A DNA stretch of 64,000 nucleotides from Beijerinckiaceae bacterium. GTDB taxonomy: Bacteria; Pseudomonadota; Alphaproteobacteria; Rhizobiales; Beijerinckiaceae. The notes beneath the pieces are model-generated. The model had not been told where the DNA came from. It worked only from the letters and a program-made list of their open reading frames with translations, and ran no database searches. The stretch covers positions 1 through 64,000 of the forward strand of contig CANGJJ010000004.1 of assembly GCA_947454485.1 (NCBI GenBank). The letters are read 5' to 3'. Shown here one piece after another: positions 17,150 through 64,000 of this stretch. Within the stretch, counting starts at the first letter, position 1. Each line of letters starts with the position of its first letter. The position numbers and the translations under genes were made by a program.

Positions 17150-18364
17150 GTGCACAAACCCCATGTCGCCATTATCGGAGCAGGCCCCGCCGGTCTCATG
17201 GCTGCGCTGGCGAGTGCGCGGGCGGGGGCGCGGGTTGAGATTTTCGAGCAGATGCCATCTCCCGCGCGCAAATTCTTGATGGCGGGGCGCGGCGGGCTCA
17301 ACCTCACCCATAGCGAGCCGCTCGATCAGTTTGTGACGCGCTATGGCGCGGCGCGCGATTGGCTTCGCACCATTCTTGCGCGCTTCACACCACAGCAGAT
17401 GCGCGACTTTGCGGCCGCCTATGGCGAAGAGACTTTTGTGGGCAGTAGCGGGCGCGTCTTTCCCAAAAGCTTCAAAGCCTCGCCTTTGCTCCGCGCTTGG
17501 CTGCGTGATTTGCAGCAGCTCGGCGTGGTGCTTCATCTGCGGCACAGTTTCACGGGCTTTGACGACACGGGCGCTTTGCGCTTTGCCACACCACAGGGCG
17601 AGCGCGAGGTTGTCGCCGATGCCTGTGTGATGGCGCTGGGTGGTGCCTCCTGGTCGCGGCTTGGGTCGGACGGGCGCTGGCTGCCTGTCTTGCAAGAGGC
17701 GGGTCTTGCTGTCGCGCCGCTGCAGCCAGCCAATTGCGGATTTGATATTGCATGGTCGCCTTTCATGGAGGCCCATGCGGGTGAGCCATTGAAGAGCATT
17801 GAGCTGCAAGCCTGCGGACACGTGCTGCGCGGGGAATGTGTCGTCACGCAATATGGGCTTGAGGGCGGTGCGATCTATGCGCTTTCATCTGTCTTGCGGG
17901 AGGAGATTGCGCGCGCGGGTTTTGCAACATTGCAGATTGATCTGCGCCCCGATGTATCGGTTGAGATTTTGGCGCAGAAGCTTGCGCGGCCGCGTGGCAA
18001 GCAATCGCTCTCCAGTCATTTGCGCAAATCAGCTGGGCTCACATCTGCAGGCGCGGCTGTGCTGCGTGAATCTGGTCCTCTGCCCAGTGATGCGCAGGAG
18101 CTTGCCCAGCGTATCAAATCCGTTTGCCTGCGTCTTGTGCGTGCGCATGGATTGGAGCGCGCCATCTCCACGGCTGGCGGTGTGCAATTGTCGCAACTGG
18201 ATGAGGGCTTGATGGTGAAAAGCCGCCCCGGTCTCTTCCTGGCAGGCGAAATGCTCGACTGGGAAGCGCCAACGGGCGGCTATTTGTTGCAGGCCTGTTT
18301 TGCCAGCGGGCTTGTCGCGGGTGAAGCGGCAGCGGCGTTTGCTGCGCGTCAATCGCCGCCCTGA
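17150..18364 (+). CDS. FAD-dependent oxidoreductase of the TIGR03862/HI0933-like flavoprotein family
   Basis: A 404-residue flavoprotein. The N-terminal Rossmann motif VAIIGAGPAGLMAALA (about 5-20) is followed by the family signature KFLMAGRGGLNLTHSE, then FPKSFKASPLL, CVMALGGASWSRLGSDG and a C-terminal FAD-closing segment SRPGLFLAGEMLDWEAPTGG. Relatives are annotated as BaiN/RdsA-like NAD(P)/FAD oxidoreductases of mostly unknown substrate. It starts with GTG at 17150 after GAGGACGCC. Its 3' end overlaps the convergent tctA gene by 16 bases. A house-keeping or repair-type role is as likely as a catabolic one. Confidence 0.85.
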   Translation: MHKPHVAIIGAGPAGLMAALASARAGARVEIFEQMPSPARKFLMAGRGGLNLTHSEPLDQFVTRYGAARDWLRTILARFTPQQMRDFAAAYGEETFVGSSGRVFPKSFKASPLLRAWLRDLQQLGVVLHLRHSFTGFDDTGALRFATPQGEREVVADACVMALGGASWSRLGSDGRWLPVLQEAGLAVAPLQPANCGFDIAWSPFMEAHAGEPLKSIELQACGHVLRGECVVTQYGLEGGAIYALSSVLREEIARAGFATLQIDLRPDVSVEILAQKLARPRGKQSLSSHLRKSAGLTSAGAAVLRESGPLPSDAQELAQRIKSVCLRLVRAHGLERAISTAGGVQLSQLDEGLMVKSRPGLFLAGEMLDWEAPTGGYLLQACFASGLVAGEAAAAFAARQSPP

Positions 18365-19860
18365 AAGGCTTCTTCACGCGACTTGCGCACGGTTGGCAAA
18401 ATAATCACCAAAACCAGCAAGACGCATAAGAAGAGCAAGAAGGCTGAGATCGGCCGCGTGACAAAGACCATCGGATCGCCGCGCGAGAGAACCAGCGAGC
18501 GGCGCAGATTTTCTTCCATCATCGGCCCCAGCAAGAAGCCAAGGATCATGGGCGCAGCCTCACAGCCAAAGCGCGACATGATGTAGCCAAAGAGCGCGAA
18601 GACAACTGTCATCGCCATCAAGACCCAATTGCTGTTCACGCCATAAATGCCGATGACGCAGAAGAGCAGGATGGCGGGATAGAGAAGGCGATAAGGCACG
18701 GTGAGCAATTTCACCCACAGGCCAATCATCGGCAGATTGATGATGACGAGCATCATGTTGCCGATCCACATGCTCGCGACCATGCCCCAGAACAAATCAG
18801 GCCGCGTCGTCATCACGGCGGAGCCCGGCTGAATGCCTTGGATGATCATCGCGCCCATCATCAAAGCCATGATGGGATTGGAGGGCAGGCCCAAAGTCAG
18901 CAGCGGAATAAAGCTGGTTTGGGCTGCGGCATTGTTGGCGGATTCGGGACCAGCGACACCTTCAATCGCGCCTTTGCCAAAGCGTGATGGATCCCTCGCG
19001 ATCTTCTTCTCCAGCGTATAGCTTGCAAAAGAGGCGAGCACCGCGCCACCGCCTGGCAGAATGCCCAAGATGGCCCCGAGCCCCGTGCCGCGCAGCGCAG
19101 GCTTCCAGCTCTGCGCAAAATCTTTGCGCGAGGGCCACAGATCTTTGAAACGTGTGGAGACAGAGGTGCGGTGCAGTTCTGGTTGTTCCAGATTGCGGAT
19201 GATTTCCACAATGCCAAAGACGCCAATCACCATGGGCAGAAAATCAATCCCGTCCCACAGTTCAGAAATGCCAAGCGTATAGCGGGCCGTGCCCGTATTG
19301 GCATCGGTTCCCACAAGGCCGAACAACAGGCCCACCAACACCATGCCAATGGCTTTGATGACACTGCCTTGCGCCAGAACCACAGCCATCAACAGGCCAA
19401 GCGCCATGAGGGAAAAATATTCAGGCGAGTTGAAGCGCTGCGAGACATCGGCAAGCGCTGGACCAAAGGCTGCGATGAACAAAGTGCCCACACAGCCCGC
19501 AAAGAAAGAGCCGAGTGCTGCAACAGCCAAAGCAGCGCCGGCACGGCCTTGGCGCGCCATCTGGTGCCCATCCATACAGGTCACAACAGACGAGGCTTCG
19601 CCCGGCATATTGACGAGGATGGAAGAGGTCGAGCCGCCATATTGCGCGCCGTAATAAATACCCGCGAGCATGATGAGCGAGGAGAGTGGATCAAGCCCGA
19701 AGGTGAGGGGCAGCAGCATCGCAATGGTGGGAATGGGGCCAATGCCCGGCAAGACGCCGATCAAAGTGCCGAGCATGCAGCCGATCAGCGCAAAGCCAAT
19801 ATTTTGCCAGGTCGCAGCGACGGCAAAACCCATGGAGAGATTGGAGAGTGCGTCCATCAT
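18349..19860 (-). CDS. tctA: Tripartite tricarboxylate transporter large permease TctA
   Basis: TctA is the large, roughly 12-helix membrane subunit of TTT transporters, which use ion gradients and a periplasmic binding protein to import carboxylates. The 503-residue chain has both family hallmarks: GVLPGIGPIPTIAMLLP (about 33-49) and YGAQYGGSTSSILVNMPGE (about 71-89). A second GAILGILPGGGAVLASF forms the mirrored half of the inverted repeat. It follows tctB with three bases between and is divergent from tctC at 20463, giving one complete TTT system. Substrate is not readable from sequence. Confidence 0.94.
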   Translation of the reverse strand: MMDALSNLSMGFAVAATWQNIGFALIGCMLGTLIGVLPGIGPIPTIAMLLPLTFGLDPLSSLIMLAGIYYGAQYGGSTSSILVNMPGEASSVVTCMDGHQMARQGRAGAALAVAALGSFFAGCVGTLFIAAFGPALADVSQRFNSPEYFSLMALGLLMAVVLAQGSVIKAIGMVLVGLLFGLVGTDANTGTARYTLGISELWDGIDFLPMVIGVFGIVEIIRNLEQPELHRTSVSTRFKDLWPSRKDFAQSWKPALRGTGLGAILGILPGGGAVLASFASYTLEKKIARDPSRFGKGAIEGVAGPESANNAAAQTSFIPLLTLGLPSNPIMALMMGAMIIQGIQPGSAVMTTRPDLFWGMVASMWIGNMMLVIINLPMIGLWVKLLTVPYRLLYPAILLFCVIGIYGVNSNWVLMAMTVVFALFGYIMSRFGCEAAPMILGFLLGPMMEENLRRSLVLSRGDPMVFVTRPISAFLLFLCVLLVLVIILPTVRKSREEAFQGGD

Positions 19861-19863
19861 GGA

Positions 19864-20313
19864 TCAGTCACCCCACCATGCGGGCATGGCTTGGCCCAAT
19901 CCATAAATGAAGAGCGCGACACTGAAGAGGCCGAGCACAATTGCCAGGATGCTCGTTTCGCCCCAGCGTGTTTCGCGTCGGGCCAGTGCTGCGATGAGGG
20001 TGAGGGCAGCGGCGCTGACAGCGAGGCCTGCAAAGGTCATCACAAAACCGAAGGCGAGGATCGCGAGGCTGACAAAAGTGACGGGTCGCCATTGCATGCG
20101 CTCAATGCGCTCACCGCTGACAACGAGCGAGGAGAGGGCGAGCCAAATGCCAATGGCGAGAATCAATCCGCTCAGAATCAGGGGAAAGAAGCCTGTGCCC
20201 ATGCGGGCGGCGCTGCCGAAGGGAAGGTCACGGCCCAGAACAAGGCCAGCAAGGCCGAGGGCGCCGAAAGCAAAGCCCGCGCCCAGATTTTGCGGGCTCT
20301 TCACGCGCAACAT
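19864..20313 (-). CDS. tctB: Tripartite tricarboxylate transporter small subunit TctB
   Basis: A 149-residue membrane protein with four predicted helices (about 8-25, 35-58, 73-98, 108-140). It fits the weakly conserved TctB family in size, topology and place beside tctA. Motifs GTGFFPLILSGLILAIGIWL and the N-terminal NLGAGFAFGALG are typical. The ATG at 20313 is preceded by GGAGGG; the longer frame upstream is not supported. It shares the 149-base divergent region with tctC. Confidence 0.88.
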   Translation of the reverse strand: MLRVKSPQNLGAGFAFGALGLAGLVLGRDLPFGSAARMGTGFFPLILSGLILAIGIWLALSSLVVSGERIERMQWRPVTFVSLAILAFGFVMTFAGLAVSAAALTLIAALARRETRWGETSILAIVLGLFSVALFIYGLGQAMPAWWGD

Positions 20314-20462: not shown

Positions 20463-21449
20463 ATGATTTCCAGACGTGATGTCTTGCAAGCGGGTGTTGG
20501 CGGTTTGGTGGCAGCGGGTGCTGGCGCTGGGAGCGCTTTTGCGCAGGCGGCCGATTATCCCAACAAGCCCATTCACGCCATTTGCATGTTCCCGCCCGGT
20601 GCTGGCGCGGATGTGATCGTGCGTTTCTTCGCCAAGCAGTTCAGCGATCTGACCGGCAAGACGGTGGTGGTGGAAAATCGCGCGGGTGCTTTTGGCAATA
20701 TCGCCTCTGAAGCTGTCGCGCGCGCCAAGCCCGATGGCTATACGATCTATATCGCGCCGGGCTCCTCGGTCTTCTCGGCGGCCAAGCATCTGTTCAACAA
20801 ATTGCCCTTCGATCCGGTGAATGACTTTGAGCATGTGACTTTGCTCATGCGCATTCCCTTTGTGATGCTGGTGCGCGGCGACAGCCCCTACAAAACTGTG
20901 GCTGATCTGACCGAAGATCTGAAGAAGCAGGGCGACAAGGCCTCTTATGGCTCAACCGCCAACACGGGTCTTGTGGCGAGCGAGCTTTACAAAGCCCAGT
21001 TTGGCTTGAAGACGGTGGAAGTGAAATACAAAGATCCGCAGGTCATGCTGAATGAATTGGTCGCCGGCAATATGGCCTTCTGCCATTGCGATCCCACCAG
21101 TGCACTCGGCCAAATGAAGAGCGGCAAATTGCGCGCTCTGGCCTCAAGCTCTGGCACACGCACCAAGGCGCTGCCTGATGTTCCCGGCGCCAAGGAGGCT
21201 GGCATCACCAATACGGATCTCACCGCTTGGTGGTCGGTGCATACGCCCAAGGGTGTTGACCCTGCGATCCTTGCCAAGCTCGAAGGCTGGTTCAATCAGG
21301 TCGCGCGTCAGGAAGAGACCGCGAAGTTCCTCTACAATATCGGCGCAGATCCCTTCCCCGGCGACACAGCACAGCTGAAGCGCTTGATGGCGAGCGATAT
21401 GGAGGCTTGGGGCCGCTATGTCGATCTGGCGAAGATCGAAAAGCTCTGA
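20463..21449 (+). CDS. tctC: TTT solute-binding protein TctC (Bug family, classical sub-type)
   Basis: A 328-residue periplasmic binding protein. It has a twin-arginine-like signal (ISRRDVLQAG, cut after AFAQA, about 28), then YPNKPIHAICMFPPGAGADV, GKTVVVENRAGAFGNI and KPDGYTIYI, the Bug-fold signature loops that grip carboxylate ligands. The length is normal. It is divergent from tctBA, so it is the natural partner of that permease. ATG 20463 follows GAGGGGAGG. It is one of three classical Bug proteins in the window (also 44958 and 49756). Confidence 0.9.
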   Translation: MISRRDVLQAGVGGLVAAGAGAGSAFAQAADYPNKPIHAICMFPPGAGADVIVRFFAKQFSDLTGKTVVVENRAGAFGNIASEAVARAKPDGYTIYIAPGSSVFSAAKHLFNKLPFDPVNDFEHVTLLMRIPFVMLVRGDSPYKTVADLTEDLKKQGDKASYGSTANTGLVASELYKAQFGLKTVEVKYKDPQVMLNELVAGNMAFCHCDPTSALGQMKSGKLRALASSSGTRTKALPDVPGAKEAGITNTDLTAWWSVHTPKGVDPAILAKLEGWFNQVARQEETAKFLYNIGADPFPGDTAQLKRLMASDMEAWGRYVDLAKIEKL

Positions 21450-21568: not shown

Positions 21569-22597
21569 GTGCTCAAGAATTGGTCGTTGCGCGTCATTGC
21601 GCTGGTGGGTGCTGTTGTGGCCGCCGGTTCGCAGGCTCAGGCGCAGTCGGATGCCGTGGCTGATTTTTATCGCGGCAAAACGCTGACCGTTCTCGTGGGT
21701 GTTGGTGCGGGCGGTGAATATGATTTTCAGATGCGCCTCGTGCAGCGCCATATTGGCAAATATATCCCCGGCAATCCTTCGACCGTCGGCCAGAATATGG
21801 TGGGTGCGACGGGCCTGTTGATGGCGAACCATCTCTACAATGTCGCGCCCAAAGATGGCACGGTGATTGGCCTCATTCAAAATGGTCTACCCTCGTTTCA
21901 GGCTATGGGCGTTGAGGGCATCAATTTTGACGCGCGCAAATTCAACTGGATTGGCTCGCTCTCGCCCACAGTCGAAACGATGGCCGTGCGCAAAGGCTCA
22001 GGCGTGATGACGGTTGAGGATGCGCGCAAGAAAGACCTGATTGCAGGCTCCAATGGCCGCGCGGGCATTACCTATACATTCCCCGCCTTGATGAATGATC
22101 TGCTCGGCACACGCTTCAAGATCGTCACCGGCTATGCCAGCGTGAATGAGATCAATATCGCGATGGAACGCGGCGAGGCCGATGGGCGCAACAATTCCTG
22201 GACCAGCTGGCGCACCGCCAAGCCCGACTGGATTGCAAATAAACAGATCAATGTGCTGGTGCGTGTGGGGCCGCTGCCCCATGATATGGATCCTTCCGTG
22301 CCGCAGTTCGAAGATCTCGTTCCCAAGCTCGAAGACAAGCAGTTGCTGCGTCTGGTGACATCAGGCTCGCGCCTTGGTCATCCCTTCGCCACCGCGCCCG
22401 GTGTGCCAGCTGAGCGTGTCGCGGCCCTGCGAGAGGCCTTCGCCAAGATGGTGCGCGACCCCGACTATCTGCGCGAGCTTGCCGCCGTGCGCCTTGAGGC
22501 CAATCCCCAGACAGGTGAGCAGTTGCAGGCCATTGTCGATGAAGTGATGGCGACGCCTGACCCGGTGAAGCAGAAGGGCCGCAAGCTCATCCAGTAA
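21569..22597 (+). CDS. TTT-type solute-binding protein (FYRGKT sub-type)
   Basis: A 342-residue exported protein (signal peptide 1-27, QAQAQ). It belongs to a second Bug-like sub-type marked by DFYRGKTLTVLVGVGAGGEY after the signal, RHIGKYIPGNPSTVGQNM and APKDGTVIGLIQNG. The acidic Arg-rich element MERGEADGRNNSW is also typical. The start is GTG 21569 after GGGAGAAA. It is followed by a strong terminator and an iclR gene, and preceded by tctC. No permease of its own is adjacent; it may use TctAB next door or another set. Confidence 0.85.
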   Translation: MLKNWSLRVIALVGAVVAAGSQAQAQSDAVADFYRGKTLTVLVGVGAGGEYDFQMRLVQRHIGKYIPGNPSTVGQNMVGATGLLMANHLYNVAPKDGTVIGLIQNGLPSFQAMGVEGINFDARKFNWIGSLSPTVETMAVRKGSGVMTVEDARKKDLIAGSNGRAGITYTFPALMNDLLGTRFKIVTGYASVNEINIAMERGEADGRNNSWTSWRTAKPDWIANKQINVLVRVGPLPHDMDPSVPQFEDLVPKLEDKQLLRLVTSGSRLGHPFATAPGVPAERVAALREAFAKMVRDPDYLRELAAVRLEANPQTGEQLQAIVDEVMATPDPVKQKGRKLIQ

Positions 22598-22619
22598 TCC
22601 CATATATTGCGAATAATAA

Positions 22620-22657
22620 GGCCTCTGAAACACCCCTTTCAGAGGCCTGTTTTTTTT
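22620..22657 (+). terminator. Rho-independent terminator after the solute-binding protein gene
   Basis: The 11-bp perfect stem GGCCTCTGAAA (22620-22630) and TTTCAGAGGCC (22637-22647) has a CACCCC loop and a run of eight T at 22650-22657. Confidence 0.95.
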
Positions 22658-22688
22658 GTATGGTGGCGCTCACCAAGGGAATAGCGCC

Positions 22689-23441
22689 GTGAAAAGCCTC
22701 GAAAAGATGATTGGCATCCTCGACCTCTTCGAGGGGTCGGAGATGGAATGGACCCCTGAAGCTCTGGCGGACCGTCTCGAGCTGACGCGCTCCACGCTCT
22801 ATCGCTATTTGAAAGTGCTGACTGATGCGGGGCTTTTGACCTCGCTGCCGGGGGTGGGCTTTACCTTGGGGCCGCGCATCGCCGAGCTTGATTACAAGAT
22901 GCGCCATTCAGATCCGCTCATCATCGCCAGCCGTCCGATGATGGCTGAATTGGTGTCCGAGATCCCCGGCATTTCGCTGTTGTGCCGCCGCTATCGCGGT
23001 CTTGTGCTGTGTGTCCATCAAGAGCAATCGCCGGGGGCGAGCTTTATTTCCACTTATGAGCGTGGCCGTGCGCGCCCGCTGCTGCGCGGCGCTGCCTCGC
23101 GCAGCATTCTGGCCAATATGCCAACGCCGATCTTGCGCAAGCTCTATGAAAGCGCGCCGCATGACTTCGCGGAGGCGGGGTTGGGGGCCGATCTTGTGAG
23201 CGTGCGCGCCACTTTGAAGGCCATCCGCCAACGCGGCTTTGATGTGACCGTGGGCGAATTGAACCAAGGCGTCACCGGTATCGCTGCTCCCATTTTCGAT
23301 GCCAAGGGCGGCGTCGTGGGTTCGCTCAGCGTCACTTTGGGGGACACCAACATCGCCTCCGAGCGGCTGGCTTTCGTGGCTGATCGCGTCACCTTTTGCG
23401 CCCGGATCGTTTCCAAGACGATCGCCCGCGAGGCTTCGTAG
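22689..23441 (+). CDS. IclR-family transcriptional regulator
   Basis: A 250-residue regulator with an N-terminal winged helix-turn-helix (about 4-60: LEKMIGILDLFEG, TPEALADRLELTRSTLYRYL) and a C-terminal IclR effector-binding domain (about 80-250, including GVTGIAAPIFDAKGGVVGSL). IclR proteins usually control nearby catabolic operons and respond to aromatic or carboxylic acids. The start is GTG 22689 with AAGGGA upstream. The next genes are an FAD monooxygenase, a class II aldolase and a binding protein, its most likely targets. A palindromic AT-rich element lies between. Confidence 0.9.
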   Translation: MKSLEKMIGILDLFEGSEMEWTPEALADRLELTRSTLYRYLKVLTDAGLLTSLPGVGFTLGPRIAELDYKMRHSDPLIIASRPMMAELVSEIPGISLLCRRYRGLVLCVHQEQSPGASFISTYERGRARPLLRGAASRSILANMPTPILRKLYESAPHDFAEAGLGADLVSVRATLKAIRQRGFDVTVGELNQGVTGIAAPIFDAKGGVVGSLSVTLGDTNIASERLAFVADRVTFCARIVSKTIAREAS

Positions 23442-23552: not shown

Positions 23553-25163
23553 ATGGATACGCAGGTTTTGATTGTCGGGGCTGGGCCTGTGGGTCTCACT
23601 TTGGCGCTTGATCTGGGTCGCCGTGGCATTGCCTGCACGCTGATCGAGCAAAAGGACAAGCCCGCCTTCCTGCCCAAGATGGAGCGCGTAAACGCCCGCA
23701 CGATGGAGATCTATCGGCGCATGGGCCTTGCGGACAAGATCCGCCAAGCGGGTCTGCGCGGGGATATTCCGATGGATGTCTTCGTCGTGCTCGACCTTGC
23801 TCATCCCCCGTTGCTGCGCCTGTCCTATCCCTCCGTGAATGAAGCTCAGGCTGATATCCGCGCGACGATTGATGGCAGCGCACCGCTCGAAGCCTATCAG
23901 CTCATCTCGCAATATACGCTGGAGCCTTTGCTCAAAAGCGAATGCGAAAAGAACCCCAACATTACGATGATGTGGTCAACGCAGTTCGTGAGCTGCGAGC
24001 AGGATGCAGAGGGCGTCTCCACCACGATCAAATGCGCAGATGGTTCGACCCGCGTCATTCGCGCGCCCTATATGGTGGGTTGTGATGGCGGTGCGAGTCC
24101 CGTGCGCCATGCGCTCGACATTAAATTGCAGGGCGAGCCCAATTCGCTGGGTCTGCGTCAGGGCCTTTATTATTGCGAAGAGCTGTTTGACCGCCTGCCT
24201 GTGGGCAATGGTCCCGGGCGCGGGCGCCACTATCATGTGGCCGATGACAAATCGACGTTCCTGATCATGCAGGACTCCACGAAACATTGGACGCTGCATG
24301 CCCAATGCGACTCCGATGAGGAGATGAAGGCGCAGTTTCGCAAAGCTGTCGGCTTTGATGTGAAATTTGAGATGCTGTCCTGCAATCCGTGGCGACAAAA
24401 TCTGATGCTGGCAGAAAAATACGGCAAAGGCCGCATTTTGCTCGCGGGCGATTCTGTGCATCTCGTCATCCCGACTGGCGGTCTTGGCATGAATTCGGGT
24501 GTGGGCGATGCGGTGGATCTGGCATGGAAGCTTGAGGCCGTGCTGCGCGGTTGGGGTGGTCCCAATATGCTGCCCTCTTATGAATTCGAACGCCGCCAGA
24601 TTGGCGATCGCAATGTGGGGGCCTCGCGCTATGCCACGATTGGTCGGCGCAAATGGCGCTCCATGTATCGTCCTGAAATTCGCGACACGACGCCAGAGGG
24701 CAAAAAGGCGCGCGAGATCCTCGCCAATGTTGCAGATGTCGAACAGCGCAAGACCAATGAAATGATCGGCGCGGAGCTAGGCTATCGCTATGTCCATTCG
24801 CCGATCATCTGCGATATTCCCGGTGGGCCTGAACATCTCTTCCGCGTCTATGAGCCCACCACTTGGCCGGGCGCGCGCTTGCCCCATGTCTGGCTGAATG
24901 ATGGAAGCGCGGTGCAAGATCGCTTGCCAGCCTTTGGCTATACGATCCTGCGGCTGGGCAAGACCAAGGTGGACACGCAGCCGCTTTCTGACGCGATTGC
25001 CGCCTATGGCGCGCCCGTCGCCACGCTTGATGTGCCCGATGAGATCGCGCGCGAGATCTATGGCTATGATCTCCTGCTGATCCGTCCCGACATGCATGTG
25101 GTGTGGCGCGGCAATGGTGAACCCGATGCCGCCGAGGTCGCGCGGATTGCGACAGGCCACTGA
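23553..25163 (+). CDS. FAD-dependent aromatic monooxygenase (PheA/TfdB/MhpA-like)
   Basis: A 536-residue flavin hydroxylase that would add one oxygen to an aromatic acid or phenol using NAD(P)H. The Rossmann FAD motif VLIVGAGPVGLTLALDLGRR is at 5-24, the DG motif appears as GCDGGASPVRHAL (about 174), and the second FAD motif is GDSVHLVIPTGGLGMNSG (about 301-318) with DAVDLAWKL. A thioredoxin-like C-terminal domain (about 420-536) is typical of the PheA/TfdB group. The substrate is unknown. It follows iclR by 111 bases and precedes a class II aldolase, so it probably forms part of an aromatic degradation unit. Confidence 0.88.
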   Translation: MDTQVLIVGAGPVGLTLALDLGRRGIACTLIEQKDKPAFLPKMERVNARTMEIYRRMGLADKIRQAGLRGDIPMDVFVVLDLAHPPLLRLSYPSVNEAQADIRATIDGSAPLEAYQLISQYTLEPLLKSECEKNPNITMMWSTQFVSCEQDAEGVSTTIKCADGSTRVIRAPYMVGCDGGASPVRHALDIKLQGEPNSLGLRQGLYYCEELFDRLPVGNGPGRGRHYHVADDKSTFLIMQDSTKHWTLHAQCDSDEEMKAQFRKAVGFDVKFEMLSCNPWRQNLMLAEKYGKGRILLAGDSVHLVIPTGGLGMNSGVGDAVDLAWKLEAVLRGWGGPNMLPSYEFERRQIGDRNVGASRYATIGRRKWRSMYRPEIRDTTPEGKKAREILANVADVEQRKTNEMIGAELGYRYVHSPIICDIPGGPEHLFRVYEPTTWPGARLPHVWLNDGSAVQDRLPAFGYTILRLGKTKVDTQPLSDAIAAYGAPVATLDVPDEIAREIYGYDLLLIRPDMHVVWRGNGEPDAAEVARIATGH

Positions 25164-26092: not shown

Positions 26093-27124
26093 ATGTTCAA
26101 GATCGCGCGCGCCGCGCTCGGCGTCTCTCTTCTGGCTCTCGCATCCACCTCAGCTTTGGCAGCGGACAAGATCACCATCGGCATCGTCAATGCGGTGAGT
26201 GATGGCACGCTCTTCATCGCGCAAGAGAAGGGCTATCTGAAAGCTGAAGGCATTGATGCCGACTTCGTCGAATTCGACACAGGGGCCAAGATGGTCGCGC
26301 CTATGGGTGCAGGCCAGCTCGATGTCGGTGGCGGGGCTGCCTCTGCGGGTCTTTATAATGCGGTTGATCGCGGCATTCGCATCAAGATCGTCGCCGACAA
26401 AGCCACCAATGTGAAGGGCGCGCCCTTTCAGTCCTTCATGGTGCGCAAAGCGCTGGTGGATTCAGGCGAAGTGAAGACGCTGGCTGATCTGAAGGGCCGA
26501 AAAGTTGCGATCACGGGTGCAGGTGGCAGCGATGCCTCTGTGCTCAATGAGGCCATGCGTAGCGTCGGCCTGACCTATAATGATGTCGAGAAGATCTATC
26601 TCGGCTTCCCGCAACATGCCCCCGCCTTCCAGAATGGCGCGATTGACGGCTCGATCACAACAGAGCCGACGACGACCAATATCCAGCGTCTGGGCGCTGC
26701 TGTGGTGCTCATGGGCAATGATGCTTTCTACCCCAATGCACAGACCGCGACGATCATGTTCTCAGGCGATTTTGCCGAGAAGCGCCGCGATGTCGCTGTG
26801 CGGTTCATGAAGGCCTATCTGCGCGCTGCACGTGACTTCAATGATGCTTTGGTGAATGGAAAATTGCAGGGTCCGGGCGGTGATGAGCTCGTCGCGATCC
26901 TCGCCAAATATACAGTCATCAAGAATCCTGAGGTTCTGCGCAATATGGTGATGGCGGGCGTCAATCCCAATGGTGCTGTGAATGAAGACAGTATGAAAAA
27001 GGATCTCGCCTTCTTCAAATCAGTGGGCGATGTGACCAGCACCAAAGTTGCCGTTGAGCAAGTCCTCGACCAGAGTTTCGCAGCAGAGGCCGTGAAAGTA
27101 CTTGGCCCTTATGTGAAGAAATAA
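26093..27124 (+). CDS. ABC-type solute-binding protein, NrtA/SsuA/TauA (NMT1) family
   Basis: A 343-residue periplasmic protein (signal peptide 1-24, SALAAD). It starts KITIGIVNAVSDGTLFIAQE, followed by GYLKAEGIDADFVEFDTGAK, LADLKGRKVAITGAGGSDAS and a long helical C-terminus. This is the NMT1/TauA-type fold used for nitrate, sulfonates, pyrimidines and aromatic acids such as phthalate. No ATPase or permease gene is adjacent. Its place after the monooxygenase and aldolase suggests it binds the aromatic substrate of that unit. ATG 26093 follows AAGGGTAAGG; the frame upstream overlaps the aldolase gene and is spurious. Confidence 0.87.
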   Translation: MFKIARAALGVSLLALASTSALAADKITIGIVNAVSDGTLFIAQEKGYLKAEGIDADFVEFDTGAKMVAPMGAGQLDVGGGAASAGLYNAVDRGIRIKIVADKATNVKGAPFQSFMVRKALVDSGEVKTLADLKGRKVAITGAGGSDASVLNEAMRSVGLTYNDVEKIYLGFPQHAPAFQNGAIDGSITTEPTTTNIQRLGAAVVLMGNDAFYPNAQTATIMFSGDFAEKRRDVAVRFMKAYLRAARDFNDALVNGKLQGPGGDELVAILAKYTVIKNPEVLRNMVMAGVNPNGAVNEDSMKKDLAFFKSVGDVTSTKVAVEQVLDQSFAAEAVKVLGPYVKK

Positions 27125-32940: not shown

Positions 32941-33179
32941 CGGGCGTGTCTCCTTTGGGATACTGCAGCCGGGCAATGCCCCCCACCGCAGCTTGGCTCT
33001 GTCTTTAAAGCCTTGAGGCGGTGGAAGGCAATCGCAGGTTCGATTTTCTTGCAGTACGGGATTTGGGGCTGTTCCCTTGACAGGGACCGGTGAGGGGCGG
33101 AAAAACGAGGCAATCGGCGCAGCCCAACCGCCCCAAAGGCGCGAAGCCTGCCTGCCCGTCAAAAAAGCAGGAGTGAAAC

Positions 33180-53529: not shown

Positions 53530-54750
53530 TTACTTTGCCAGCATGGTGCAGGTCTTGGGATCCATCGGCGGGAAAGCCTCCGCCGATGTGATCGTGCGGA
53601 TCTGTTTGTAAAAGTCGTAGGGTCCTTTGGACTCTTGACGGCTCTTCACCTGAAATAGATCCAGATCATAGGTCATGCGGCCATCTTCGCGCAGCGTGGC
53701 GGGCTTGCCCAGATAATCGACCGGCATGTCGCGCATCTTGGCCATCACAGCTTTGGGCTCTTTGGTGCCAGCTGCTTCAATCGCGCGCAGATAGTGGCGC
53801 ACACCAATGTAATTTGTCGCATGGGCCTTGGTTGGCATTTTGCCATTGTTGCGAGCGGCAAAGCGGCGCGCAAAGTCGCGCGCGGCCTCATTGGCATCCC
53901 AATAAAAGCCCTCGGTCACATAAAGGCCCTTGGCGACATCAAGGCCGAGCGCGCGAATATCGCTGATGACCATGAGCAGACCTGCGACGACTTGCTGGCC
54001 GGACATGAGACCAAATTCAGAGGCCTGTTTGATCGCATTGGTCGTGTCTTCGCCGACATTGGCCAATGCAATCACCTGCGCTTTGGAGGCTTGCGCTTGC
54101 AGCAAGAAGGACGAGAAGTCTGAGGCTGCGAGCGGATGGCGCACTGTGCCCACAACCGTACCGCCGCCTTCGCGCAACACGCGCTCTGCGGAGGCCTGCA
54201 TCTGATGGCCAAAGCCGAAATCAGCGGTGAGGAAGAACCAGCTCTTGAGCCCGCGTTCCAGCAGGGCTTTAGCCGTGCCTGCTGCAAGAGCATTGGTGTC
54301 ATCCGCGCTGTGGACGGTGGTGGGGGAGCATTGGCCGGTGGTGAGTTCGGGTGTGGCGGCTTCCGCGACGAGAATGATCTTTTCGCGCTCTTTGCCAAGA
54401 CGGGCGACAGCCAGGGCTGAGGGCGTATTGGGCAGATCGGTGATCGCATCGACATTCTCAACATCAAACCAGCGGCGCGCGATCTGTGCAGCAACATCGG
54501 GCTTGTTGAGAAAGTCAGCCTGAATGACATCCACGCTCATGCCTGCCGCCTTGCTGCCATGATCCTCCACCGCCATGCGCGTGGCAATGACAGCGCCCGG
54601 CCCGCCGATCTCCATAGAATAGCCCGACAGATCACCCATCACGCCGATGCGGATGCGGCCCTGTTGGGCAAAGCTGCTGCGGCCCAGAAGTGGAAGCGCG
54701 CAACCAGCACAGAGAAGCTGCGTGGCACGGCGGCGGGAGATCTGCGTCAT
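53530..54750 (-). CDS. ABC-type branched-chain/aromatic acid binding protein (LivJ-like)
   Basis: A 406-residue periplasmic binding protein of the Leu/Ile/Val receptor family. It has a Tat-like signal (ISRRRATQLLCAGCA, cleavage near SSFAQ at about 28), then IRIGVMGDLSGYSMEIGGPG, MSVDVIQADFLNKPDVAAQI and FFLTADFGFGHQMQASAERV. Relatives often bind aromatic acids or amides rather than branched amino acids. No livF, livG, livH or livM gene is adjacent. ATG 54750 follows AAAGGATG. It converges on the cupin gene with six bases between. Confidence 0.87.
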   Translation of the reverse strand: MTQISRRRATQLLCAGCALPLLGRSSFAQQGRIRIGVMGDLSGYSMEIGGPGAVIATRMAVEDHGSKAAGMSVDVIQADFLNKPDVAAQIARRWFDVENVDAITDLPNTPSALAVARLGKEREKIILVAEAATPELTTGQCSPTTVHSADDTNALAAGTAKALLERGLKSWFFLTADFGFGHQMQASAERVLREGGGTVVGTVRHPLAASDFSSFLLQAQASKAQVIALANVGEDTTNAIKQASEFGLMSGQQVVAGLLMVISDIRALGLDVAKGLYVTEGFYWDANEAARDFARRFAARNNGKMPTKAHATNYIGVRHYLRAIEAAGTKEPKAVMAKMRDMPVDYLGKPATLREDGRMTYDLDLFQVKSRQESKGPYDFYKQIRTITSAEAFPPMDPKTCTMLAK

Positions 54751-57688: not shown

Positions 57689-58507
57689 TCAGCTCTGCCA
57701 TTGTCGTTGAGCTTGGGTTTCCACCACGCGTATATCCATTTTGGCGTCTTCGCCATGGCCAGAGTGGCTGGCACGCACAGGCCGTGCGCCCAGATAATCG
57801 AGGGCGCAGGCTATACGAATGTGACGATCTGACGGGCAATGATCATAGGCGGGGTCAAAAGCGACCCAGCCAAGGCCGGGCACATGGGCCTCGGCCCAGA
57901 CATGAAGCGATTCAGGGCCGACAGGCTCTTCACGCAGCACATAGCCGCTGATGCAGCGGGCTGGCGCGCCCAGACTGCGCGATGCTGCCATGAAGAGATG
58001 GGCGAGCCCAGCGGCATTGGCGCTTTGGGCTGCGAAGGTCTCAAGCGCTGTCGCCTCGCCAAGCGCAGGGTCGAAAGCTGCGTGGCTGTGACAGGCGGCC
58101 AAAAGCAGATGCAATTTGCCGAGCTGGTCGCTCGCCTCGCTGGTGACATCATGAGCCCATGTGCTGAGCTTCGGATTGGCCTGCGTGAGATCTGTGGGGC
58201 GCAGATAGAGTTCAGCTGGGAAATTTTCACGCGTGCCACGCACGACGCCGGCTGTGTCGGAGGTCTCGACTTCGCCCTCCACCAGAACAGCAAAACTGCT
58301 CACAGGGCCGTCGGCGCTGAATTCGTGGACGATATTGCCGAAGGCATCTTCGCTTGTCGTCAGGCGGCAGTCCATATTCACATCGATGCGCCAATTAGCA
58401 ACATGTTGGCCTTCGAAATTGCGCGGCGTCATGCGCAGAACCTGCAAGACCGCGCGTGCAGGTGTCTGGAATTGATAGGTCGTTTCGTGCTGAACGCGGA
58501 TACGCAT
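57689..58507 (-). CDS. Transglutaminase-like protein lacking the catalytic cysteine
   Basis: A 272-residue protein with an N-terminal bacterial transglutaminase-like beta domain (MRIRVQHETTYQFQTPARAV) and a transglutaminase/protease core (about 115-225). In active relatives the nucleophile lies in RGVCQDFAHL. Here the aligned segment is SANAAGLAHL, so residue 165 is Ala (codon GCC at 58013-58015), and the following Gln and Asp are lost too. His202 (LHVWAEAHVPG) and Asp218 (GWVAFDPAYD) remain. It is therefore probably inactive as a protease or transferase and may bind peptides instead. It lies between Anbu and alpha-E genes, in the usual order. Confidence 0.88.
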   Translation of the reverse strand: MRIRVQHETTYQFQTPARAVLQVLRMTPRNFEGQHVANWRIDVNMDCRLTTSEDAFGNIVHEFSADGPVSSFAVLVEGEVETSDTAGVVRGTRENFPAELYLRPTDLTQANPKLSTWAHDVTSEASDQLGKLHLLLAACHSHAAFDPALGEATALETFAAQSANAAGLAHLFMAASRSLGAPARCISGYVLREEPVGPESLHVWAEAHVPGLGWVAFDPAYDHCPSDRHIRIACALDYLGARPVRASHSGHGEDAKMDIRVVETQAQRQWQS

Positions 58508-58515
58508 GGAACGCC

Positions 58516-59472
58516 TCAGTCGAGCAGATATTGTTCAGCGATGGCGCCACCGATTTCGTAATTATCCTCGATGAATTCAGTCAGGAATTCATGCAGGCCG
58601 GTGGTGAAGACCTGCTTCATTGTGGCATTTTGCAGCTTGGTATAGGTCTGTCTTGCGCGGCGTTGGGCTGCGCCCTGACGGCCATAGGCATTAGCGATCG
58701 CATCCAAAAACCGTACGATCTCGCCATAGCAAGCAATCAGTGAGCGCGGCATTTCGGGGCGCAGGATGAGCAGATCTGCAATCAGCCAAGGCTTGACGCC
58801 TTCACGATAGATCCAGTGATAGGAGGTGACGGCCGAGACCGCGCGCAAGATGGCATTCCACTGGAAATAATCCAGCGAGCCGCCCACCGCCTCTGTCTCG
58901 GGCAACAGGATATTATATTTCACGTCAAGAATACGCGCGGTGTTATCGGCGCGTTCCACATAAAGGCCAAGGCGCGAGAACCAATAGGCATCATTGCGCA
59001 GCATGGTGCGATAAGCAGAGCCATCGACGTCAAGTGCCAGCTTCATCGCCATATCGAGAAAGGCGACCAGCTCTTCTGTGTCGAGCGGTTTTTGTGCGTG
59101 TTGGCGCTGCACCTTCTTCATCTCTTGCCAACCAGCGTTGATCGTCTCCCATGTCTCAATGGTGAGAGCGGTGCGCACAGCGCGCGCATTGACGCGGCCA
59201 GATTCGATGCAATTGACGATGGAGGATGGGTTGCGCGCATCAAAGAGCAGAAAGTCGACCGCCTTGTCAGGATCAACCGCGCCATGGACAGCCTCATAAG
59301 GCTCAAGCGCGCCAGCGGCCGACAGTGCGGCCTCCCATTCATTGGCCGCTCCGCCATCGCCAGAGGGCAGTGAGGCCAGACGCCGCGTCGTATTGGCGAT
59401 CCGCGCGATGAAATCTGCACGCTCCATATAACGTGCAAACCAGAAGAGATTGTCGGCTGTGCGAGAAAGCAT
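58516..59472 (-). CDS. Alpha-E domain protein
   Basis: A 318-residue all-helical protein of the alpha-E family. The start MLSRTADNLFWFARYMERAD with FIARIANTTRRL is the family signature, and DARNPSSIVNCIESGRVNAR (about 80-99) is highly conserved. Alpha-E proteins always accompany circularly permuted ATP-grasp ligases and transglutaminases and are proposed to assist in peptide ligation. It lies seven bases after the ATP-grasp gene and eight bases before the transglutaminase-like gene, on the same strand. Confidence 0.93.
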   Translation of the reverse strand: MLSRTADNLFWFARYMERADFIARIANTTRRLASLPSGDGGAANEWEAALSAAGALEPYEAVHGAVDPDKAVDFLLFDARNPSSIVNCIESGRVNARAVRTALTIETWETINAGWQEMKKVQRQHAQKPLDTEELVAFLDMAMKLALDVDGSAYRTMLRNDAYWFSRLGLYVERADNTARILDVKYNILLPETEAVGGSLDYFQWNAILRAVSAVTSYHWIYREGVKPWLIADLLILRPEMPRSLIACYGEIVRFLDAIANAYGRQGAAQRRARQTYTKLQNATMKQVFTTGLHEFLTEFIEDNYEIGGAIAEQYLLD

Positions 59473-59479
59473 GATCGCC

Positions 59480-60916
59480 TCAAACCGCTTGCGGGTCGTC
59501 GATGACCCAAGTGTCTTTGGTGCCGCCGCCTTGGCTTGAATTCACCACCAGCGAGCCTTCTTTCAACGCCACGCGCGTCAGGCCACCTGGCACAACACGC
59601 ACGCCATCAGCGCCTGACAGCACAAAGGGGCGCAGATCCACATGGCGCGGGCCGATGCCTTGCGCGAATGAGGCAGGGCAAGTGGAGAGCGACAGGGTCG
59701 GCTGCGCGATGAAATTGGCAGGATCTGCTTTCAACTTCTGCGCGAAAGTCGCGATCTCGTCTTTGGAAGCATGCGGGCCAACCAGCATGCCATAGCCGCC
59801 CGATCCATTGACTTCTTTAACGACGAGCTCGGGCAAATGATCGAGCACATATTTTAGAGCTTCAGGCTCGCGGCAGCGCCATGTCGGCACATTCTTCAGG
59901 ATCGGTTCTTCGCCCGTATAGAAGCGGATGATCTCGGGCATATAGGTGTAAACGGCCTTGTCATCGGCAACCCCGGTACCAACAGCATTGGCGAGCGTGA
60001 CATTGCCCGCTTGATAGACGCTCATCAAACCCGGCACACCCAATGCACTGTCAGGACGGAAGGCGAGCGGATCAAGAAAATCATCATCAAGGCGACGATA
60101 GATCACATCGACGCGTTTGCGCCCCTGTGTGGTGCGCATATAGACAAAGCCATCGCGCACCAGAAGATCGCGGCCCTCTACCAATTCCACGCCGAGTTTG
60201 TCAGCCAGAAACGAATGTTCGTAATAGGCCGAATTATATTGGCCTGGCGTCAACACAACGATGGTGGGGTCGCCGCCTGCGCTGAGCGGTGCGACAGAGC
60301 GCAAACAAGCGCGCAAATGTTCGGGATAATTCTCAACAGGTGCTACGCGGCAAGCAGCGAAGAGATCTGGCACAAGGCGCATCATCACTTCGCGGTTCTC
60401 GAGCATATAAGAGACGCCGGAGGGAGTGCGCGCATTGTCTTCCAGAACATAGAAGTCATTTTCATCCACACGCACCACATCAATGCCTGCGATATGGACA
60501 TAGATATTATGCGGCACGGGGCGGCCCGCCATTTCGGGGCGATAGGCGGGGTTGCGATAGATGATGTCAGAGGGAACGATCCCTGCTTTGAGGATCTCGC
60601 CTGTGCCATAAAGATCGGCGAGGAAGGCATTGAGCGCGGTGACACGCTGGATCAGGCCCTTCTCAAGCCGCGTCCATTCGCTGCGCGACAGAACACGCGG
60701 AATGATGTCGAAGGGGATCAAGCGCTCGGTCGCATCCTGATCGCCATAGACCGCGAAAGTGATGCCGATACGGCGGAACATCAGCTCGGCCTGATGGCGG
60801 CGAGAGGCGAGCAATTCAGGCGGCGATTGTTCCAGCCACTGGGCAATGCGCCTGTAGACGGCGCGGATGTCGCCACCCGCTGTCGTCATCTCATCAAAGA
60901 ATGGCTTTTGCCCCAC
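59480..60916 (-). CDS. Circularly permuted ATP-grasp type 2 protein
   Basis: A 478-residue predicted peptide or amide ligase. Landmarks are RRIGITFAVYGDQDATERLI (about 48-67), FDIIPRVLSRSEWTRLEKGL (about 69-88), DFYVLEDNARTPSGVSYMLE, VKEVNGSGGYGMLVGP (ATP-binding Lys loop) and DLRPFVLSG near the end. It starts at GTG 60916 after GGGAG; ATG 60889 is an alternative. It is the first gene of the four-gene Anbu cluster: ATP-grasp, alpha-E, transglutaminase-like, Anbu. The ligase is thought to make a small peptide or tag that the others process; the real substrate is unknown. Confidence 0.93.
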   Translation of the reverse strand: MGQKPFFDEMTTAGGDIRAVYRRIAQWLEQSPPELLASRRHQAELMFRRIGITFAVYGDQDATERLIPFDIIPRVLSRSEWTRLEKGLIQRVTALNAFLADLYGTGEILKAGIVPSDIIYRNPAYRPEMAGRPVPHNIYVHIAGIDVVRVDENDFYVLEDNARTPSGVSYMLENREVMMRLVPDLFAACRVAPVENYPEHLRACLRSVAPLSAGGDPTIVVLTPGQYNSAYYEHSFLADKLGVELVEGRDLLVRDGFVYMRTTQGRKRVDVIYRRLDDDFLDPLAFRPDSALGVPGLMSVYQAGNVTLANAVGTGVADDKAVYTYMPEIIRFYTGEEPILKNVPTWRCREPEALKYVLDHLPELVVKEVNGSGGYGMLVGPHASKDEIATFAQKLKADPANFIAQPTLSLSTCPASFAQGIGPRHVDLRPFVLSGADGVRVVPGGLTRVALKEGSLVVNSSQGGGTKDTWVIDDPQAV

Positions 60917-61064: not shown

Positions 61065-62021
61065 TTAGTCCTCTGCTTGCAGGCGCGCGAAGCCGAGTTT
61101 CTCATGAACCGGCAAATCTGAGACGCAAAAAAGCAGGGCATCTTCGCTGGCTGTGTGGCGCACGGCGTTCCAGGTGGGGAGCACGATTGTGTCACCCCGT
61201 TCCCACTGGAAGGTTTCGCCGCCTGCTTGCGTCGTGCCGCGACCGCTTACGACAGAGATGATCTGATTTTCAGTTGAACGTAGGGTGCGGGTCGACTGAC
61301 CAGCCAGCAGCTCCTGCATATAGAGGGCTGTGGTGGGCATGGAGGGCGCGTCGAGTTGAATGCGCTTGCGGCCATAGTCATCGGTCTTGGCGTCTTTTAA
61401 TTGCGCGCGTGTGCTGGCAAGCGTGAAGACGAAGGGGTGATCGCGTGTTGTCTGTTCGACCGGCTGCAATCCGTCCCACAGATCAAAGAACATGGGCTCC
61501 AGCAGATGCACCAGCGGCACATCGAGATAATCAATCCAATAGCCGGGGCGTGAGCCATCATTGCCGTGACCATGCCAACTCATGCCGGGTGTAAGCAAAA
61601 CATCGCCCGGTTCCATGTCGATGCGAATGCCATCGACAATTGTGTAGCATTTATCTGCAACATCCATCACCAAGCGCAGCGCATTGGGTGAGTGGCGATG
61701 CGTGCGCGCGGTCTCTCCGGGCAGGATCATCTGATAGGCGGTGACGAGTGTACGCAGGCTTGCGTAGTGATTGCCCTCAATCGGATTGACCATGAAAAGA
61801 TTGCGGCGCTCAGCTTGCTCGGCATTGATCAGGCGGCCGGCGGCATCAAGGCCCGCTTTTGCATCGCCATAGTGCCACATGAAGGGGCGGAATTGTGTGC
61901 GCGGCTCTTTCCATAAAGAGGGCTCGTGTTTGTTCCAGCCCGCCATGAATTCGAGCGGATTCAGCAGCTCTCGCAAATCTTCGAGATTGGCGGCATCAGC
62001 GAGCGCGGTGCGGTCTGTCAT
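61065..62021 (-). CDS. Bicupin, gentisate 1,2-dioxygenase-like
   Basis: A 318-residue bicupin and paralog of 42318-43370. N-terminal cupin: MILPGETARTHRHSPNALRL (His-x-His, about 100) and LLTPGMSWHGHGNDG (third His). The C-terminal cupin has STRTLRSTENQIISVVSGRG and no His pair. ATG 62021 is preferred because AGAGG lies six bases upstream; ATG 62027 overlaps that site. The stop is TAA at 61065. It is divergent from a solute-binding protein gene with 222 bases between, so the pair may be co-regulated for uptake and ring opening of one aromatic acid. Confidence 0.84.
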   Translation of the reverse strand: MTDRTALADAANLEDLRELLNPLEFMAGWNKHEPSLWKEPRTQFRPFMWHYGDAKAGLDAAGRLINAEQAERRNLFMVNPIEGNHYASLRTLVTAYQMILPGETARTHRHSPNALRLVMDVADKCYTIVDGIRIDMEPGDVLLTPGMSWHGHGNDGSRPGYWIDYLDVPLVHLLEPMFFDLWDGLQPVEQTTRDHPFVFTLASTRAQLKDAKTDDYGRKRIQLDAPSMPTTALYMQELLAGQSTRTLRSTENQIISVVSGRGTTQAGGETFQWERGDTIVLPTWNAVRHTASEDALLFCVSDLPVHEKLGFARLQAED

Positions 62022-62243
62022 GTTCATCCTCTGCGTGGAGGAGATGAGCGCACCACTGTGGCCGCTGCATGGAGCCCAGGCTCGGCCCAGCCTTGCGATA
62101 GGCCGGGTCTTGAACTTGGGCGCTCTCTCCCCCTCATTGAGGCGCATCATAAGGATCGGGAGAGGCGGGTCAAAGGGTTGTGATTCTCGTGCTTTCGACA
62201 GAGAATGGCACCGACAAGGGCGCAAGGCCCGAGGGAGGATATC

Positions 62244-63284
62244 ATGACAGCAAGCAGACGCACGGCGTTGCAGTTTTTTGCCGTGCTTGCCTGTTCGGTT
62301 GGAGCAGCAGGACTGGCGCAGGCCCAATCGGTCGCAGACTTCTATCGCGGCAAGACGATCAATCTCATCATCGGCACATCGGCGGGCAATGACTATGACT
62401 ATCGCGCCCGTCTGGTGGCGCGCTTTATGGGTAAATATATCCCCGGTGAACCGCTCATCGTGCCGCGCAACATGCCCGGCGGTGGCGGTATTCAGGCTGC
62501 CAATTATGTGTCGAATATGGCGCCGCGCGATGGCACGGTCATGCATATGATCATGCAGAATATGATGGCCGCGCAAGCCGTGCAGATGCCGGGTATTGAG
62601 TTCGATACGCGCAAATTGATCTGGATCGGCAATACGACCAGTGCGCCCAATGTCATCAACTCCTGGCACACATCGGGCATCACCTCCATTGAGCAAGTGC
62701 GCACGCAAGAGCTCGTCGTGGGTGCGCCCATGGGGACAGCCGGCGCGCTTTATCCAGCTTTGCTGAATGCGGTTGCGGGGATGAAGTTTCGCCTGGTGAT
62801 GGGTTATCCCGGCGGCAATGAAGTCAATCTGGCGATGGAGCGCGGCGAAGTGAGTGGGCGTGGCTCCAACTCATGGGCCTCCTGGAAATCGACCAAGCCC
62901 GAATGGCTGCGCGATAAGAAGATCAATATTCTTGTTCAGGTCGGATTGAAGCGTCACCCCGATCTGCCCGATGTGCCGCTGCTGCTTGAGCTTGCCAGCA
63001 AGCCCGAGGATCGCAAGCTGCTGGAGTTCTTCTCGGCTGATACGGATCTGTCGCGCTCTTTGGTGACAACGCCCAATGTTCCAGCCGAGCGTGTCGCTGT
63101 GCTGCGGGCCGCTTTTGATGCAGTGATGAAGGATCCTGAGTTTCTGGCGGAAGCCGCGCGGGCGGGTATGGATATCAGCCCCGGCACGGGGGCTGACTCG
63201 CAGAAGGTCGCCGAATCCATCGTCAATGCGCCGCCCGAGATTATCGCGCGCGCCAAGGCCATTATGGAAGCTCCGGCCAAGTAG
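62244..63284 (+). CDS. TTT-type solute-binding protein (FYRGKT sub-type)
   Basis: A 346-residue exported protein (signal peptide 1-28, with SRRTALQFFAV Tat-like, ending GLAQAQ). It starts ADFYRGKTINLIIGTSAGND, with RFMGKYIPGEPLIVPRNMPG and APRDGTVMHMIMQ, and LAMERGEVSGRGSNSWASWK. It is most like the proteins at 21569 and 51984. ATG 62244 follows GAGGGAGGA. It is divergent from a bicupin dioxygenase-like gene and followed by an ABC-type binding protein gene; no permease is near. Confidence 0.87.
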   Translation: MTASRRTALQFFAVLACSVGAAGLAQAQSVADFYRGKTINLIIGTSAGNDYDYRARLVARFMGKYIPGEPLIVPRNMPGGGGIQAANYVSNMAPRDGTVMHMIMQNMMAAQAVQMPGIEFDTRKLIWIGNTTSAPNVINSWHTSGITSIEQVRTQELVVGAPMGTAGALYPALLNAVAGMKFRLVMGYPGGNEVNLAMERGEVSGRGSNSWASWKSTKPEWLRDKKINILVQVGLKRHPDLPDVPLLLELASKPEDRKLLEFFSADTDLSRSLVTTPNVPAERVAVLRAAFDAVMKDPEFLAEAARAGMDISPGTGADSQKVAESIVNAPPEIIARAKAIMEAPAK

Positions 63285-63386
63285 GATCATGCGACATCAG
63301 GTGGCCCTTCGGGGCCGCTTGCATTCCCTGTGCGCTCATTGTCAGATGGGCCTATGGGCGCCGCAGAGCGCTGCAGGGAGGAGACC

Positions 63387-64000
63387 ATGATTGCAATTGC
63401 GCGGCTCGCCATGGCGAGCGCTATCGCCGTGTCATTCAGCTTTGGTGCCATGGCGCAAGACAAGCCAGCCCTGCGGGTCGGTACGCTCAAGCAAGGCTCA
63501 CTCACCAATCTCTATGCTGCCAAAAAGGCAGGCCTGTTTGAAAAGAACGGGCTCAATGTCGAGCTGATCGAATTTCGCAACGGCAATGAAGCCATCGCAG
63601 CCCAGCGCGGGGGTAGTGTCGATCTTGTTCTCACCATCCCCGGTACAGCCATGGTGGCGGTGGAGCGTGGCTTTGATCTGCAGCTGATCGTGGGCAATGA
63701 AACGTCGCAGGCTTCAGCGCCCGACACAGGCTCAATCGTCGTGCGCAAAGATTCCAATATCAAAACGCTCGCTGATCTGAAGGGCAAGACGATTGCGATC
63801 TCGGGCACACATACGCAAAAGACAGTGGCCATTCAGGCTCTGCTGAAGCGCAATGGCGTTGGCCCGAATGATTTTAAATTCCTCGAAATGCCCTATGCCT
63901 CGCAGGTCGATGCGTTGCGCGCCAAACAGATCGAAGTTGTTGCCTCGCTTGATCCGTGGACGACTTTGTTCCGCAACTCCGACTTCGCCACCATTCTGGC
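63387..64000 (+). CDS. ABC-type solute-binding protein, NrtA/SsuA/TauA (NMT1) family, 3' end outside window
   Basis: At least 204 codons are visible with no stop before the window edge. ATG 63387 follows GGGAGGAG. The signal peptide (about 1-24, GAMAQD) is followed by LRVGTLKQGSLTNLYAAKKA, GLFEKNGLNVELIEFRNGNE, DLVLTIPGTAMVAVERGFDL and KTLADLKGKTIAISG, the normal NMT1/TauA order. The ligand is unknown. It lies 102 bases after a Bug-type gene on the same strand; permease and ATPase genes may lie beyond the edge. Confidence 0.87.
   Translation, partial: MIAIARLAMASAIAVSFSFGAMAQDKPALRVGTLKQGSLTNLYAAKKAGLFEKNGLNVELIEFRNGNEAIAAQRGGSVDLVLTIPGTAMVAVERGFDLQLIVGNETSQASAPDTGSIVVRKDSNIKTLADLKGKTIAISGTHTQKTVAIQALLKRNGVGPNDFKFLEMPYASQVDALRAKQIEVVASLDPWTTLFRNSDFATIL

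Follow-up and report, generated by a model that had tools for sequence, protein, structure and literature searches.

We analyzed a stretch of 64,000 nucleotides (the window) from the contig CANGJJ010000004.1 of a Beijerinckiaceae bacterium, in which eight binding proteins of the tripartite tricarboxylate transporter (TTT) type are encoded. Judged from their sequences, these eight proteins fall into two deep and old classes, three canonical Bug/TctC proteins and five divergent ones that we call class d. What is new is this division, together with the association of either class with a permease type of its own, the canonical class with split TctB and TctA and class d with a TctA-TctB fusion. A previous sequence-only reading of this DNA had listed binding-protein frames starting at 20463, 21569, 27669, 30578, 44958, 50730 (minus strand), 51984 and 62244, and had seen only two permease sets, tctBA (18349-20313) and a fused gene (36886-38949). 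All eight frames are indeed open at these starts, and Pfam matches confirmed both permease sets at the places given. The model we favor, with a probability of about 0.7, is one of two parallel TTT systems, in which class d would work with the fused permease and the fused gene of the window would serve as common port for 57 class-d proteins.

The source genome is a 3.29 Mb draft in 20 contigs, estimated as 98.6% complete, that encodes around 136 TTT binding proteins (around 41 per Mb) against six TctA and six TctB. With six TctA for that many binding proteins, a one-to-one pairing is impossible, and dedicated permeases elsewhere in the genome were rejected as an explanation. Sharing of permeases, as the sequence-only reading had supposed, thus holds in outline, although not as one pool for all eight proteins. 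The count is made up of 57 class-d and 79 canonical TctC proteins, the latter obtained from 118 PF03401 rows after removing 38 class-d rows and one 71-residue fragment. In the 46.85 kb covered by the sequence-only reading, eight binding proteins were observed where 1.9 were expected (Poisson probability 9e-4), although this region had been picked with its content already known.

The three canonical proteins (20463-21449 and 44958-45941 on the plus strand, 49756-50730 on the minus strand) match the Pfam TctC model (PF03401) at 184, 267 and 196 bits, respectively, and the top PDB sequence matches are Bug27 for 20463 and BugD for 50730. The class-d proteins, all on the plus strand, are encoded at 21569-22597, 27669-28694, 30578-31597, 51984-53003 and 62244-63284. 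Three of them (27669, 30578 and 51984) gave weak PF03401 matches of 36-52 bits, 62244 reached 26.1 bits, below the cut-off of 27, and the Pfam scan returned no PF03401 match for 21569. Scans of the window proteins found no model dedicated to class d in Pfam or NCBIfam. All eight proteins can be aligned over their length, class d carrying insertions relative to the canonical three. When the profile made from the five window proteins was run against the own genome, 57 matches were obtained at 130-554 bits, followed by a gap in score and then by canonical proteins at 62 bits or less. PF03401 scored 27 of these 57 proteins above its cut-off and 10 below, and returned no row for 20; as 30 of the 57 fall short, the Pfam model undercounts these proteins. 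For 54 of the 57, the median identity was 33% and none was more than 60% identical to its nearest paralogue, which marks the expansion as old.

The AlphaFold model of 62244, the one class-d protein modelled (mean pLDDT, the predicted local distance difference test, 90.9), has a Bug fold. In a Foldseek search, its first 17 PDB matches were all TctC/Bug-type chains, with template modelling scores by target of 0.71-0.80 and 17-20% identity, and the next match was clearly weaker. The fold is therefore shared with known Bug/TctC proteins such as BugD, Bug27, TphC, AdpC and MatC, the differences from the solved members being this low identity and the company of a fused permease. We rejected the possibility that class d are TAXI proteins: with TIGR02122, whose cut-off is 84.35 bits, two of the window's eight binding proteins scored 31.3 and 11.8 bits and the other six gave no match. 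Membership of NMT1 was ruled out by the family scans and the structure matches.

To relate each class to a permease, neighbors were classified with profiles built solely from the five class-d and three canonical proteins of the window. The fused permease was searched for in 397 genomes of the phylum and found at an E value of 1e-90 or better in 20, the own genome included. Outside the genus, all 20 fused-type loci that were fetched (in 19 genomes, and counting L254, which a coverage rule labelled as not fully fused) had a same-strand neighbor within 1.3 kb fitting class d better, at 70-277 bits with the class-d profile versus 50 bits or less with the canonical one. Of four fused-type proteins from elsewhere that were scanned, three matched both PF01970 and PF07331, and one (L241) matched TctA yet gave no TctB match; for the remaining loci outside the genus, the label fused is based on length and coverage. 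The split TctA loci of the same 19 genomes served as control. Thirty were fetched, one of which was the fused permease of genome G340 again, and among the 29 counted a canonical-type neighbor was present in 27, class d in none, and no binding protein was found within 1.5 kb in two. The segregation of the classes between fused and split loci gave a Fisher p value of 1e-13. Across the 397 genomes, a class-d match at 1e-60 was seen only in the own genome and in G340, where 1.3 kb separate it from the fused permease that matched best outside the genus in that sample. The idea of the sequence-only reading that interchangeable binding proteins feed one or two shared permeases has to be corrected accordingly; as the classes segregate with permease type, free exchange between the two permeases of the window is unlikely.

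Within the genus, for which the collection searched held 51 genomes, 20 fused loci had a class-d gene within 3 kb, three had a canonical one and 40 of the 63 had none, versus one, 17 and two of the 20 split loci, a set composed of 14 loci picked from a longer list, four from the own genome, L184 (seen by chance) and that of the window. In plasmids, relatives of 62244 were present at an E value of 1e-20 in 21 of 72,556 records, with 30-39% identity, and 17 of these 21 had a fused permease within 5.5 kb, the comparison covering 60 of the 83 records that matched the fused permease. One of the 17 is from Paraburkholderia caribensis MBA4. A Phyllobacterium plasmid carries an unfused permease pair with its class-d gene. 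The plasmids of Sinorhizobium mexicanum, S. chiapasense and S. terangae have three class-d places, of which the best one entered the comparison: the fused permease is more than 250 kb away in the S. mexicanum and S. terangae plasmids, and none was found for the S. chiapasense plasmid among the matches listed (60 of 83 records).

The binding-protein and permease trees divide at the same boundary. In the tree of binding proteins (89 rows), a single branch separates the classes with a support of 98 in the Shimodaira-Hasegawa-like approximate likelihood ratio test (SH-aLRT). The class-d side holds 33 of the 34 proteins next to a fused permease, all four next to an unfused sister of it, the five class-d proteins of the window and one of the 43 next to a split permease; the canonical side holds the other 42 next to a split permease, the three canonical proteins of the window and one next to a fused permease. 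This tree was built without the odd-numbered genus loci of the next-to-fused set and without proteins shorter than 250 residues, and proteins longer than 360 residues were trimmed to their last 360. In the permease tree (91 rows, the genus fused loci being limited to those with numbers divisible by four), the 49 split rows stand on one side of a branch with SH-aLRT 100, and 38 fused and four sister rows on the other. A further alignment (A4) was made without L300, whose match holds a stop, and several other loci of 62244 relatives. Gene order differs as well. In the own genome, all five split pairs have the order B-A and the fusion has the order A-B, so that genes arranged A-B would be an easier starting point for a fusion than the canonical operon. 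Such an arrangement is seen in L208, L209 and L306, where unfused TctA and TctB genes in the order A-B overlap by 4 bases. As a side observation, these three loci represent a third permease type, followed downstream by an intermediate class-d protein.

We propose that in one system the canonical Bug/TctC proteins (20463, 44958 and 50730) work with split TctB and TctA such as tctBA, and that the other is a separate old lineage, in which class-d proteins of the Bug fold (21569, 27669, 30578, 51984 and 62244) would have the TctA-TctB fusion as partner. In the genus, class-d genes would have multiplied and scattered as the fused permeases stayed few. In the periplasm, each class-d protein would bind a substrate of its own, probably an acid, and pass it on to the fused permease at 36886-38949, the putative membrane port common to all 57. 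What the computation shows is the division into two classes, the linkage of these to two types of permease, the conserved pairing of 62244 with its dioxygenase-like gene, and the count of 57 class-d proteins versus a fused gene that is the sole one found among the six TctA of the genome. Delivery to it, its service to many proteins and the ligands are what we infer.

Several observations weigh against this model. No class-d gene adjoins the fused permease in this genome, the nearest (30578) ending 5.3 kb away. A second fused permease, around 60% identical to that of the window and present in many genus relatives, was not found in the own genome, and it could be missing from the draft of 20 contigs. 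Of the genus fused loci, 40 lack a binding protein within 3 kb and three have a canonical one. Since class d accompanies unfused TctA-TctB in L208, L209 and L306, fusion itself is not required. The trees were quick ones, with SH-aLRT as sole support and long branches flagged in both. The p values are overstated because genus rows share ancestry and are not independent; outside the genus, too, the pattern is that of two old linked lineages and not of many independent origins. Except for G340, class-d neighbors of permeases outside the genus reach no more than 70-117 bits, and in the control the margin of L323 is narrow (61 bits canonical versus 51 class d). The plasmid records are redundant, six of the 17 being Sinorhizobium fredii. 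Conservation within class d also picks out no single docking face, the lowest entropy being found in strand beta7 and its loop, the beta1-alpha1 loop, helix alpha1 and a helix at 281-295.

Given the distance between the class-d genes and the one fused permease of this genome, most class-d proteins could instead be periplasmic sensors or buffers that feed no permease. A few of their neighbors are regulators (IclR_C in two of 78). We consider this unlikely, as class d adjoins a permease outside the genus and no sensor-kinase family appears among the 25 listed of the 109 Pfam families matched by the neighbors. It could also be that any TTT binding protein uses any TTT permease, the classes being mere sequence drift. 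Both classes and both permease types do coexist in one genome, and shared membrane components have been proposed for Bordetella and Rhodoplanes (PMC5994714, in the part available); against this, the neighbor classes split 20:0 versus 0:27 in the same genomes and both trees divide at the same place, which makes free use improbable. Service by other permease families, ATP-binding cassette (ABC), tripartite ATP-independent periplasmic (TRAP) or major facilitator superfamily, seems very unlikely to us. In Rhodoplanes, TTT proteins have been linked to ABC (41) and TRAP (8) genes (PMC5994714, same part), but no ABC or TRAP membrane family was among the 25 listed of 109 families for the 78 class-d neighbors.

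Part of this picture is already known. In the available part of PMC5994714, the genome-wide excess of binding proteins, the sharing of permeases and the sensor role are all published. There, Rhodoplanes sp. Z2-YC6860 was reported to encode 434 TTT binding proteins in 8.2 Mb, a count for which six characterised TTT proteins were run as tblastn queries at 1e-15; because of this choice of queries and threshold, class d was probably mostly missed in that count. The expansions in Rhodoplanes and Bordetella resemble the present one, with many binding proteins and few permeases, but that part of the paper describes no pairing of class and permease. Fusion of TctA and TctB was called rare, and fused TctAB, with the same architecture as 36886-38949, was first noted in P. 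caribensis (PMC5812351); this review, in its available part, names no special binding-protein class for it. In the literature covered, which includes PMC12344293, was available in part and leaves out most subscription journals, we came across no class of binding proteins linked to fused TctAB. A parallel is offered by the TAXI-TRAP binding proteins, a second class that goes with fused membrane subunits (DctQM; PMC5812351, as far as available), although the permease family is another one and the class-d proteins of the window reach no more than 31 bits against the TAXI model, for which the cut-off is 84. That class d is a second, unrecognised TTT branch and counterpart of TAXI, with one or a few fused permeases as hub for dozens of binding proteins, is a tentative idea to which we give slightly less than an even chance. 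If true, substrate range would grow through added binding proteins alone. Ever since the first counts in Bordetella, orphan TTT binding proteins have lacked an assignable permease. Should the class rule hold, the permease type of each orphan could be predicted from nothing but its sequence, and with 57 class-d proteins to one fused permease a single deletion could test the hub idea.

The sequence-only reading had also placed most binding proteins beside a different catabolic enzyme. This describes the window but not the genome. Neighbors of 53 own class-d genes (78 of 80 non-TTT proteins within 400 bases scanned, genes called by a crude script) were mixed, with amidohydrolase (five), TauD (three) and UbiD (two) as well as DnaJ (two), DEAD helicase (two), aconitase (one), methionine synthase (one) and IclR_C (two), and a catabolic enzyme as genome-wide rule was rejected. 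Amidohydrolase was the commonest family among the 25 of 109 listed. A control set of 73 genes lying further away matched 87 families, and the 25 of these that were listed do not include Amidohydro_2, of which a single match could be hidden by the listing. This control was drawn from a list of 90 genes by taking out 16 that belong to the window and three of L352 and by adding two other window genes. Another 19 neighbor slots of class-d genes held binding proteins, 10 class d and nine canonical. Around class-d/fused-permease units, annotated examples include amidohydrolase, aldolase, thiamine pyrophosphate-enzyme and UbiD genes.

Matching of enzyme and binding protein across genomes was strong for 62244, partial for two others and absent for one. 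A gentisate-dioxygenase-like gene was kept beside 62244 orthologues (at least 70% identity) in nine of nine loci with DNA on that side, L011 having none there; in two of the nine, the pair is separated by a hydroxylase-like gene or by more than 1 kb. The gene was found beside none of 19 paralogues at 58-66% identity. In a second, overlapping set of named metagenome genomes (at least 69%), it was present in 11 of 12, L262 having instead another dioxygenase-like gene on the opposite side. The search with 62244 led to named relatives that are metagenome genomes, for the most part under the labels Beijerinckiaceae, Hyphomicrobiales or uncultured Rhizobiales; Roseiarcaceae bacterium H3SJ34-1, with a 65% relative of 62244, was a further match. 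In the window, this gene is the bicupin at 61065-62027 (minus strand, start checked), divergent from 62244, and another bicupin lies at 42270-43370 (plus). Both fall below the equivalog cut-off for gentisate 1,2-dioxygenase (TIGR02272, 212 and 271 bits, respectively, versus 442.1) and are related bicupins. The protein 62244 probably binds a gentisate- or salicylate-type aromatic acid, a guess by association because its bicupin is well below the cut-off. For 30578, the citryl-CoA-lyase-like and CaiB genes were kept alongside in five of eight relatives. For 51984, the cupin was kept in four of nine orthologues at 67% identity or more and in none of 20 more distant relatives; for 21569, the IclR and FAD (flavin adenine dinucleotide) hydroxylase genes were beside none of four orthologues.

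The remaining features of the window are as follows. On the minus strand, tctB (19864-20313, PF07331 54 bits, start checked) is transcribed ahead of tctA (18349-19860, PF01970 521 bits, on the split side of the permease tree), and 20463 is divergent from this pair. The fused permease (36886-38949, plus) matches PF01970 at 396 bits and PF07331 at 37 bits and stands on the fused side. By eye, twin-arginine-like signals (SRRD or SRRA) start the three canonical proteins, and among the class-d proteins of the window SRR is seen in 62244 only. The gene 21569 is followed on the plus strand by the IclR regulator (22656-23441, PF01614) and the FAD aromatic-hydroxylase-like gene (23553-25163, PF01494 234 bits). 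Eleven bp downstream of 27669 is the class III CoA-transferase of CaiB type (28706-29842, plus, PF02515 403 bits), then the citryl-CoA-lyase-like gene with a citrate synthase C-terminal domain (29839-30597, plus, NF004868 286 bits, cut-off 193), which 30578 overlaps. An amidohydrolase (31924-33162, minus, PF04909 115 bits) is followed by two neighboring single cupins (33180-34441) with weak matches to an aminosalicylate dioxygenase model, upstream of the EutA-like gene (34670-36244, plus, PF06277 339 bits), itself upstream of the fused permease. The EutA-like gene is within 1.5 kb of a fused permease in 11 of 29 genus relatives, and one is also near the class-d locus of Phyllobacterium. A SnoaL-like protein (39017-39628) adjoins the fused permease and is retained in several relatives (L032-L034, L053). 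A luciferase-like monooxygenase (43745-44824, minus, PF00296 197 bits) is divergent from 44958, the canonical gene 50730 is downstream of a short-chain dehydrogenase (50759-51508, minus, PF13561 148 bits, start checked), and the cupin adjoining 51984 lies at 53059-53523 (plus, PF07883 38 bits, start checked). Interspersed with the eight are three more binding proteins that belong to other families (two to NMT1 and one to Peripla_BP_6), at 26093-27124, 53530-54750 and 63330-63998. Finally, 57692-60916 is probably a cluster of Alpha-E and circularly permuted ATP-grasp genes, these families being matched in the control gene set that contains them.

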